Shown: positions 17,398 to 20,502 of the stretch, one piece after another
Layout of the letters: each line of letters opens with the position of its first letter
How positions within the stretch are numbered: the stretch's first letter is position 1
Assembly: GCF_001042695.1 (NCBI RefSeq)
Contig: NZ_AP012334.1
Location: 1,178,001 to 1,242,000, forward strand
DNA length: 64,000 nt
Origin: Scardovia inopinata JCM 12537
GTDB taxonomy: Bacteria > Actinomycetota > Actinomycetes > Actinomycetales > Bifidobacteriaceae
Direction: 5' to 3'
Position numbers and translations under genes: made by a program
Notes under the pieces: generated by a model
The model's input: only the letters and a program-made list of their open reading frames with translations
Databases searched by the model: none
What the model was told of the DNA's origin: nothing

Positions 17398-18177
17398 TCA
17401 TGCGGCTGAGTGCGTGTCGTTTGAATAACCAGGAGCAGCCTCACCAGTTCCAGGAATCTGCAACTGCAGGTCACACTGTTCCACCACATTCTGGCTGTGG
17501 GTAGAAATCAGCACCACAGACCCAGAATCAGCAAATTCCCGCAGGATAGCCATCACCATATCCCCATTGGCGGTGTCCAAAGATGAAGTAGGTTCATCAG
17601 CAAGAATAATTGTCGGCTTTTTCAGCATCAGCCGGGCTAAAGCCACCCTCTGCTGTTCTCCTCCAGAAAGAGTATAGATTTTCTCTTTTTCCATATCCGC
17701 CAAGCCAACCCTAAATAGAACCTTTCTGCACAGGTCTGAATATTGCCGTCTGGGTATATTTTTATTAATTTTCAAAGGAACCATCAGGTTTTGACGAACA
17801 GTCCAGGAATCAACCAGACCATAGTTCTGAAAAAGAAATCCTAGGGTATCATGAAAATACATACGGCGTTCTTTGGCAGTCAGCAGGTCTTTTTTCCTGG
17901 TAATTTTGCCGCTTTTGCCCGGTTTCCCTCCTTTACCGGGCTTGATATCAAGAACCAACTTGTCGCCGTAATACATGGACCCCTGGGTAAAATCTTCCAA
18001 GAGTCCCAGGCAGTTGATAAGTGTCGTCTTTCCTGCACCGGACGGACCGGTTACCGCTACCAGGGCCTCGGCGGGGACAGTAAAAGACCAATTTTCCCAC
18101 AAGATATGATGGCCAAATCGCTTGGCTGCATCCTTAACTGTAATCGCCGGAAGCTGCTGTTTATTGTTATCCATCAT
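17398..18177 (-). CDS. ABC transporter ATPase of lactococcin-972 export type
   Basis: This 259-residue ATP-binding subunit has Walker A GPSGAGKTT (residues about 43-51), the signature LSGGEQQRVALARL and Walker B IILADEPTSSLD. It therefore belongs to the MacB/LolD-like ATPases that energise extracytoplasmic-type permeases. Its start ATG lies one base after the permease stop, with AAGGAGT upstream, so the two are coupled. The pairing with a large seven-helix-type permease and a tiny signal-peptide protein is the layout of lactococcin-972 bacteriocin/immunity loci. A GK-rich insert near residues 75-90 (GKGGKPGKSGK) is unusual. The export or immunity role is inferred from context. Confidence 0.88.
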   Translation of the reverse strand: MMDNNKQQLPAITVKDAAKRFGHHILWENWSFTVPAEALVAVTGPSGAGKTTLINCLGLLEDFTQGSMYYGDKLVLDIKPGKGGKPGKSGKITRKKDLLTAKERRMYFHDTLGFLFQNYGLVDSWTVRQNLMVPLKINKNIPRRQYSDLCRKVLFRVGLADMEKEKIYTLSGGEQQRVALARLMLKKPTIILADEPTSSLDTANGDMVMAILREFADSGSVVLISTHSQNVVEQCDLQLQIPGTGEAAPGYSNDTHSAA

Positions 18178-18178
18178 G

Positions 18179-20293
18179 TTAGGACTCCTTGATCATACTT
18201 GCCCTGGTCTGACTTTCGAAAGTTTTTAGCATTCCCACTGTCATACTCACCTGAAGAATAAGAATTATAAGAGCAAGAACTATACTGGCCCCATCCCGCA
18301 TATGCCCAATCCGGGAGGCAATTTCCAGAGCAGCGACAGTGACAACAAACCCAACCAGTATGATTCCCACATGCCGTCTGATGAATGAATATCCATGAGT
18401 CAGTTTTATAAAATTCTGTTTTTTCCTGAGTTCACAGTATGCACTTATCAAAACGCCAATCGACATAACAAAAACACCAAAACCGAGAATCATGCCCAGT
18501 ATATCCATCACCTGTTCCCGCTGCGAGAGTTGAATGGAATAGGCAACAATATCAGCGGCATTGTTGATTCCTGAGAAATCACCCAGAATCCCAGCTTTAT
18601 CAAGAGCCGCGGTCAAGGCTGCAGGATTAGTAAAAAGAACATTCCCACTTGAAGCATAAGAGATGAAGACTGCTGGAGCAATTAAATGCGATCGAACATT
18701 GGCCACTGCAGCAACCGGATCTTTCAAAGAAGCGGTTCGGCTTGTTGTTCCGCTTTGCCCCTCTGCTGGCATGTCCAATTGCGCATTGTTATAAAGAAAA
18801 TAGGATTGTCCTGCCTTGGCTCTGATTATCGACAGCTCAGGTTTACAAGCCGCCTTATTCGATGGAGAATCTGAGCCAGACTCCGAGGTTTCACACCATC
18901 CTTTTAAGTCAGAAGCATAACTCTTCTTCAATTTCTCAATGCTTCCATGATATGTTTCAGGCACAATCAGCAGGACCTTGTTAAGCTCCCCAGTGGGATA
19001 GGTGATTTTATGACCGTGAACATCAAGGATGGGATTCTTCTGCAAATATCCATTATTGATATAAAGAGAATTTTTTTCACCTGGGAAGTAACTTCTTTCA
19101 CCGTGTGCAATTGCTTCGGAATCTTGGGCGTTAGAGTGAATAAAAACTGTTTGATCTTTGCTCTCCAGAGAACCGGCTACCTGTCGAAAAGGAGCCCCAT
19201 CATCAAACATTTTCTCCTGAGGTAGATTTACATAGATACTGGTTGAATAAAGAGGCCCCGTTTTCTGCCACACTGTAAGTTCATTTGATGCCTGGTTAAC
19301 AGCAGAAATCCGTAAAACTGTCCCTGACAAAGCACCGAAAATCAAAGCTACCACAATGATTTGGGTAGCAAAACCAATAACAAAACTGGCAGTTGTATTA
19401 TTTTGATTTTTGATAACAGGAACAATAGCTATCGATCGAATAAAAATAGATGAAATAAAACTGACAGCCGTAATTCCTAGTATTAGCAAAGCAAGCCAGG
19501 AAACACAGAGCAGGGAAAGAAAACGAAAATATTGATGGAAATGATTATATATTCCCAGTACCAGGGTCAGAAGAGCAAGAACTATTATCATGCTCTTTCC
19601 TGAAAAAGCCAGAAAATCCGCAATCTCCCCTCTGACAATCTGCCCGTGGGAATATCCGTGGAGCTCACGCAAAGCATAGGATTTTCGCTGCCTGGAGCAG
19701 GAAAAGGCAATGGAAAGAATCAGAGCCAGAATCAAAGCGAGGAAGAAGGCAGCCGAGTTACTTTGCCCAATCCCGAATATGAAGTATGCTGCTGCATTGG
19801 ATTTATATGAAGATCCCGCTGTCGAAATACTCATCCCCTGCTCTGACAACTTGTGAACCAGCTGAGAGAACTTACTGCCAGATACATTAACTGCATACTG
19901 CCCCCGTAAATCCTGATAGGTTATAGCAGAGGCAGGTTTGATGGTGTATCTTCCCGATAAAGACGAAAAAGTCGGGTATGAATACCCTCCAGCTCTGGCA
20001 AATGCAGCTTGATTACCAATAAAAACGAAAGCTATGCTTTTATCCGATGCAGACTCGGGATCAGGTTGAATTTTATAAATATTGATTTTTTCTTCTTGAG
20101 CAAGATTTTTAAAAGTCGTCAGAGCTGCACTTTTTTTACCTGAAATTTGTTCTACCGTGAAAGATGACTGAGTACCATAGGGCTGATTTTGATCCATGAC
20201 AATAAAAGCCTGAAATGCAAAGAAAACGCCAAAAATCAAAGCAATAATCCATGAAACCTTAAAAATTCTATGCACAGCAGAAACCTCACTCAC
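18179..20293 (-). CDS. bacteriocin-associated integral membrane permease
   Basis: This 704-residue protein has one N-terminal membrane helix (about 13-32), an extracytoplasmic domain, a block of four helices (about 178-335) and a second outside domain (about 340-590). Three more helices finish it. This matches the lactococcin-972-associated membrane protein family (putative immunity/export permease), a relative of FtsX/MacB. The helix-flanking SYALRELHGYSHGQIV and KLTHGYSFIRRHVG repeats are typical of the family's two halves. The start is GTG at 20293, which overlaps the TGA stop of the small peptide gene. The stop is one base before the ATPase ATG. Base composition seems more A/T-rich than the neighbours, hinting at acquisition by transfer. 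Confidence 0.85.
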   Translation of the reverse strand: MSEVSAVHRIFKVSWIIALIFGVFFAFQAFIVMDQNQPYGTQSSFTVEQISGKKSAALTTFKNLAQEEKINIYKIQPDPESASDKSIAFVFIGNQAAFARAGGYSYPTFSSLSGRYTIKPASAITYQDLRGQYAVNVSGSKFSQLVHKLSEQGMSISTAGSSYKSNAAAYFIFGIGQSNSAAFFLALILALILSIAFSCSRQRKSYALRELHGYSHGQIVRGEIADFLAFSGKSMIIVLALLTLVLGIYNHFHQYFRFLSLLCVSWLALLILGITAVSFISSIFIRSIAIVPVIKNQNNTTASFVIGFATQIIVVALIFGALSGTVLRISAVNQASNELTVWQKTGPLYSTSIYVNLPQEKMFDDGAPFRQVAGSLESKDQTVFIHSNAQDSEAIAHGERSYFPGEKNSLYINNGYLQKNPILDVHGHKITYPTGELNKVLLIVPETYHGSIEKLKKSYASDLKGWCETSESGSDSPSNKAACKPELSIIRAKAGQSYFLYNNAQLDMPAEGQSGTTSRTASLKDPVAAVANVRSHLIAPAVFISYASSGNVLFTNPAALTAALDKAGILGDFSGINNAADIVAYSIQLSQREQVMDILGMILGFGVFVMSIGVLISAYCELRKKQNFIKLTHGYSFIRRHVGIILVGFVVTVAALEIASRIGHMRDGASIVLALIILILQVSMTVGMLKTFESQTRASMIKES

Positions 20294-20433
20294 CTGGAGA
20301 ATTTGCAGGTAAAGTTACCACCATCTGCTCCAGAAGCATAAACCGTTGTCGGAACACACAAAGCTCCCATCATGAGAAGGGATGTAGCGGCAGCAAGCAA
20401 ACTCCTCCGTTTTGCTGTTTTACCAGTATCCAT
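20290..20433 (-). CDS. 47-residue secreted peptide, coupled to the permease
   Basis: A short gene starts with ATG at 20433, with AAAGGAGT eight bases upstream, a near-ideal ribosome binding site. It encodes a positively charged head (MDTGKTAKRR), a hydrophobic core rich in Leu, Ala and Met, and a likely cleavage site after VYA near residue 33. The mature part would be only 14 residues, SGADGGNFTCKFSR, with one Cys. Its TGA overlaps the GTG start of the permease. In lactococcin-972 loci the bacteriocin precursor sits at this place, but those are about 90 residues long. So this is either a truncated precursor or a different short secreted peptide. Confidence 0.72.
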   Translation of the reverse strand: MDTGKTAKRRSLLAAATSLLMMGALCVPTTVYASGADGGNFTCKFSR

Positions 20434-20502
20434 GGCCAATACTCCTTTGAAAATTTAGGAACTCTTTTTTTCTTCTTTCTCATAATTATTTTTTACTCGA
20501 AT

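Follow-up and report, generated by a model that had tools for sequence, protein, structure and literature searches.

Lactococcin 972, encoded ahead of two further genes (lcn972 orf2 orf3) on plasmid pBL1 of Lactococcus lactis, is secreted by a Sec-type route, and a Sec-secreted peptide needs no dedicated exporter. The orf2-orf3 pair is considered a putative immunity ABC transporter (PMC4055356), a role that is experimentally unverified in any lactococcin 972 locus (PMC11796350). Streptococcin clusters of Streptococcus pneumoniae are known in which the bacteriocin is gone and the immunity and transport genes are kept (PMC6120550, PMC11796350); strains carrying the D39-type scbBC genes are still inhibited, and these genes were not switched on under the conditions tested (PMC11796350).

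The window analyzed here, 64,000 nucleotides from Scardovia inopinata JCM 12537 (contig NZ_AP012334.1, positions 1,178,001 to 1,242,000), comes from a species represented by one genome, a single contig of 1.80 Mb. On its minus strand a 47-codon open reading frame, hereafter the stub, lies directly before a permease gene, which is followed by an ATPase gene. We consider it highly probable that the stub represents the 5' end left over from a lactococcin-972-family bacteriocin gene whose transporter has been kept, most likely providing immunity without production. The features of the locus, compared where indicated with G001, a genome of the same genus, are as follows.

20442..20448, minus strand: Shine-Dalgarno sequence AAAGGAG of the stub, part of a motif, TTCAAAGGAG, common to relatives
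20433-20290, minus strand: 47-codon stub, a truncated lactococcin-972-family bacteriocin gene, from its match (E 2.9e-8) to and alignment with the full-length G001 precursor
20335..20433, minus strand: signal-sequence part, 33 residues, assigned by eye and by alignment with the signal parts of intact precursors
20305..20334, minus strand: SGADGGNFTC, the ten N-terminal residues that survive from the mature bacteriocin, nine of ten identical to SGADGGNFGC of G001
20293..20304, minus strand: KFSR, a tail after the deletion junction or a remnant of adjacent sequence, from which point there is no clear match to intact precursors
20284..20289, minus strand: probable permease Shine-Dalgarno sequence GTGAGG, directly past the stub stop codon; its counterpart before the permease in relatives is GGTGAGGTGA
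18179..20275, minus strand: intact seven-transmembrane bacteriocin-associated permease, TIGR01654-like (1.8e-38), 698 residues from GTG 20275, 58% identical to that of G001
17398..18177, minus strand: intact ABC ATPase of the lactococcin 972 group, TIGR03608-like (1e-61)

The truncated precursor gene and its intact relatives

The stub translates as MDTGKTAKRRSLLAAATSLLMMGALCVPTTVYASGADGGNFTCKFSR. Its Shine-Dalgarno sequence (20448-20442) lies 8 nt ahead of the ATG. Read by eye, the product consists of a signal part of 33 residues, with positive charge at its N-terminus, a hydrophobic core and the motif VYA just before SGADGG, and of 14 further residues. The preliminary description had reported the ribosome binding site, the signal sequence and the VYA cleavage site, conjectured export of the 14-residue product (SGADGGNFTCKFSR) and proposed a homologue search beside this permease family in other genomes. 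Such a search gave one strong match, a full-length precursor in G001 (E 2.9e-8, 50% identity across residues 9-46), 98 residues long and encoded at the same chromosomal site upstream of the permease; because this precursor occupies the corresponding site in a genome of the genus, the stub is more than a chance reading frame. The two proteins match through the signal sequence and SGADGGNF-C, after which the window protein ends in KFSR and the G001 protein runs on into the bacteriocin domain (...FASGADGGNFGCSISGVPGWGYV...KCWYGF in G001 versus ...YASGADGGNFTCKFSR and the stop codon in the window).

A phosphoglycerate-mutase gene and tRNA-Ala(GGC) flank the site in all three genomes of the genus (window, G001 and a third, G002). 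The order in the window is mutase, stub, permease, ATPase and tRNA; in G001 it is mutase, histidine kinase, response regulator, precursor, permease, ATPase, amino-acid permease and tRNA; and G002, which is without the bacteriocin system, has only mutase, amino-acid permease and tRNA (the kinase, regulator and amino-acid permease were named by eye from their sequences). The distance from the precursor ATG to the permease start is 441 nt in G001 versus 158 nt in the window. The permease-side end of the deletion falls at or just before the Shine-Dalgarno sequence at 20289-20284, the stub TGA coming from that edge. Neither a displaced C-terminal piece nor a second bacteriocin copy was found in the whole genome, and a PF09683 search of that genome gave no match even at E 10. 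Promoter and terminator scans returned nothing beyond chance. Ahead of the intact bacteriocin operon of G001, and divergent from it, are the histidine kinase and a LuxR-type response regulator (L108:1445-3717); no counterpart of this kinase was detected in the window's genome at E 1e-5, in a search run without a positive control.

Judged by alignment, the permease probably starts at GTG 20275 rather than at the mechanical reading-frame start 20293, the GTG aligning with the ATG of the G001 permease (MHRISQ... in G001, VHRIFK... in the window). With this start, the TGA that ends the stub (20292-20290) falls on the edge of the permease Shine-Dalgarno region, 14 nt ahead of the permease start. 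A fusion of the stub and permease frames was ruled out, since ATG 20433 and GTG 20275 are 158 nt apart and so lie in different frames.

Membership of the lactococcin 972 family was assessed by score and by fold. The precursors of G001, G070 and G212 all pass the Pfam PF09683 (Lactococcin_972) cut-off of 22 bits, with 33.4, 44.4 and 42.7 bits, respectively. All three score below the cut-off of TIGR01653 (21.2 versus 32.1 for G001), and the clade is therefore divergent. A profile of the intact mature parts matched PDB entries 9hkj (1e-12) and 2lgn (1.8e-11), whereas a PDB search with the single G001 precursor gave no match. AlphaFold modeled the mature part of the G001 precursor (pLDDT 91.6) with six strands, of which the first occupies residues 7-13. 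In a Foldseek search with this model lactococcin 972 (2LGN) ranked first, though only with E 0.01 and a TM score of 0.66-0.68. By Pfam score and top fold match, then, the G001 homologue belongs to the family. The intact precursors of the clade (L041:1147-1353, L043:1547-1756, L057:3722-3931) contain two cysteines, at about mature residue 10 and near the C-terminus, that possibly form a disulfide and are unusual in being absent from most of the lactococcin 972 family members aligned.

The stub itself gave no family match to the Pfam and TIGR01653 models, only a meaningless match of its signal sequence, and it lacks a complete domain (about 62 positions) scoring above either cut-off. Going by the alignment, it is a fragment related to the lactococcin 972 family and not a member of it. 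It retains ten mature residues, only the first of the two clade-specific cysteines and, judged on the G001 model, about one of the six β-strands, and it should be unable to form the lactococcin 972 fold.

The transporter genes are intact. The best family of the permease is TIGR01654 (bacteriocin-associated integral membrane protein), with an additional weak match to DUF1430, and that of the ATPase is TIGR03608 (putative bacteriocin export ABC transporter, L_ocin_972_ABC). Their scores fall below the curated cut-offs (132.5 versus 189.35 and 208 versus 254.85), both proteins being divergent from these best families, and by curated model score they would not count as a lactococcin 972-type transporter; by adjacency they do, permease and ATPase lying downstream of a precursor that is intact in G001, G070 and G212. 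An insertion rich in Gly and Lys, PGKGGKPGKSGK, sits between Walker A and the Q-loop region of the window ATPase (17398-18177, minus strand), and the G001 ATPase has a longer repeat version of it, GKAGKKGKAGKAAEAGKTGKTGKTGKTSEGGK.

Recurrent loss of the bacteriocin gene in the permease clade

The bacteriocin gene is intact in only three of the 11 loci of the permease clade (G001, G070 and G212) and broken in the other eight (G000, the genome of the window, and G217, G060, G075, G209, G220, G205 and G211), while the permease frame is open in all 11. The lesions differ.

Window: 47-codon stub
G217: 28-codon stub, stopping near the signal-sequence boundary
G075 and G209: common nonsense codon in the signal sequence, plus a deletion
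G060: five codons left ahead of the permease Shine-Dalgarno sequence
G220: junction as in G060, ATG changed
G205 and G211: 5' end lost; internal TAG or frameshift

The preliminary description had left two possibilities, that the frame is a shortened relic or that it represents a novel kind of short secreted peptide with a dedicated transporter. A full-length precursor stands beside the same permease family in relatives and the window has a deletion at that point. This is the outcome that the description had named as refuting the peptide, and the relic is borne out. A novel peptide class finds no support: the stubs of related species are broken differently, at 5, about 10 and 28 codons, a 47-residue form is conserved in none of the relatives, and the transporter goes with a full-length bacteriocin equipped with a signal sequence of its own.

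We count at least five independent losses: in the window, in G217, in G060, in the ancestor of G075, G209 and G220, and in G205/G211. The deletions of G060 and G220 (L055 and L054, upstream of the permease) share the same junction at a TTTGGG repeat. In the permease tree G220 groups with G209 (support 0.91) and G060 with G070 (0.999); since the G060 and G220 permeases are thus not sisters, the shared junction probably arose twice by repeat-mediated loss, recombination being the other explanation. Ahead of the permease in the more distant loci G213 and G219 there is no recognizable bacteriocin gene, and in G219 (L062) an in-frame TAG near the permease start is perhaps a stage in the transporter's own decay. 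Family-wide, 36 of 52 TIGR01654-type matches have no PF09683 match within 4 kb, although the distant matches may belong to other systems.

Because G075 and G209 share a lesion, their differences arose mostly after bacteriocin loss; a comparison of the window with G001 is saturated at synonymous sites. Between the permeases of the pair there are 18.5 synonymous and as many non-synonymous changes (dN/dS 0.31), between the ATPases 4 synonymous and 1 non-synonymous (dN/dS 0.07). Over an assumed transition bias of 1 to 8, p is 0.002-0.02 when the permease is taken alone and 0.0001-0.004 when the two genes are combined. From these counts, the transporter of this pair appears to have stayed under purifying selection after the bacteriocin was gone.

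What the stub and the retained transporter may do

We propose that a deletion removed all but the first ten residues of the mature domain, took the intergenic spacer with it and reached as far as the downstream permease Shine-Dalgarno sequence, the edge of which would supply the new stop codon. The surviving permease-ATPase pair would most likely protect the cell against lactococcin-972-type bacteriocins of its neighbors, and retention of the transporter after bacteriocin loss fits protection against neighbors that still produce. The stub would be a vestige, giving, if translated, an unfolded 14-residue exported fragment and at most helping ribosomes to reach the permease start; no support was found for a residual function. 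Since the precursors carry a Sec-type signal sequence, the ABC pair should not be needed for their export, and because a Sec-secreted peptide needs no dedicated exporter, the recurrent retention of the transporter supports the view that the DUF1430-type permease and the ATPase are an immunity device. With its bacteriocin gene broken, its transporter/immunity genes intact and no second copy, the window locus is best read as an "immunity-only" or "cheater" lactococcin 972 locus, in which the weapon has been lost and the shield kept.

That the stub has been kept as a translated leader coupling its translation to that of the permease is unlikely. The closeness of its TGA to the permease start and the similar ending of the G060 stub at the permease Shine-Dalgarno sequence would suit such a leader; the stop position, however, follows simply from where the deletion ends, the stubs of G075, G209 and G217 stop well before the permease, and RNA folding across the stub and permease start does not rise above that of shuffled sequences (z -0.06). 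Also improbable is that the permease-ATPase pair acts as a general exporter for cell-envelope stress or antibiotics, retained for reasons unrelated to lactococcin-972 immunity. That the substrate cannot be named from sequence and that the pair is retained without the bacteriocin in eight of the 11 loci speak for such a role, but the transporter directly follows the lactococcin 972 gene in the intact loci, and its best-matching NCBIfam models are named for bacteriocin loci.

We think it very unlikely that the short frame encodes a functional Sec-exported peptide, whether signal, inhibitor or decoy, with a dedicated transporter to handle it. The good Shine-Dalgarno sequence, intact signal sequence and clean cleavage motif and the position immediately upstream of the permease speak for such a peptide. 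Yet an undamaged Shine-Dalgarno sequence, start codon and signal sequence are to be expected after a recent deletion as much as under a retained function. The nearest homologue is a complete bacteriocin encoded at this very site, the stubs of related species are truncated in different ways and conserve no short peptide, and the kinase beside the G001 locus is missing from the window's genome. It is extremely unlikely that the exported fragment, with its one cysteine and conserved GG motif, has been reused, be it for signaling or as a decoy that sets off the retained transporter near producers. A sequencing or assembly artifact is hardly credible even for a species known from one genome, since miscalled bases do not explain a loss of about 280 bases in a single-contig genome, and other assemblies show comparable lesions.

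Comparison with known systems

What was supposed to be a new peptide class is thus clearly an instance of bacteriocin decay in which the transporter survives. The same outcome, reached through different lesions in eight of 11 related Bifidobacteriaceae loci, together with the apparent selection on the transporter in the pair that shares a lesion, gives comparative support to the still unproven immunity idea. The pattern itself is known, though its recurrence in the Bifidobacteriaceae may not have been reported before; the only literature found to name both lactococcin 972 and Bifidobacterium asteroides was a plasmid review with one mention of each.

The loci of the Bifidobacterium asteroides group (intact in B. 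choladohabitans, G070; deleted in B. mellis, G060) share with the window the permease clade, the upstream position of the bacteriocin gene and its recurrent loss, and differ in their lesions and in a permease only about 31% identical to that of the window. With lactococcin 972 itself the window locus has in common the order precursor, permease, ATPase and a secreted precursor, and the domain and fold are present in its full-length relatives; unlike lactococcin 972, the window copy is without nearly all of the mature domain, and the intact forms of the clade have the two additional cysteines. The partial streptococcin B/E loci (scbBC, D39-type) likewise have lost the bacteriocin and kept the transporter/immunity genes, and have been read as "cheater" loci (PMC6120550, PMC11796350). 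In contrast to these, the window keeps the start, the signal sequence and ten mature residues of its bacteriocin gene, and the losses in its clade recur across species of one family.
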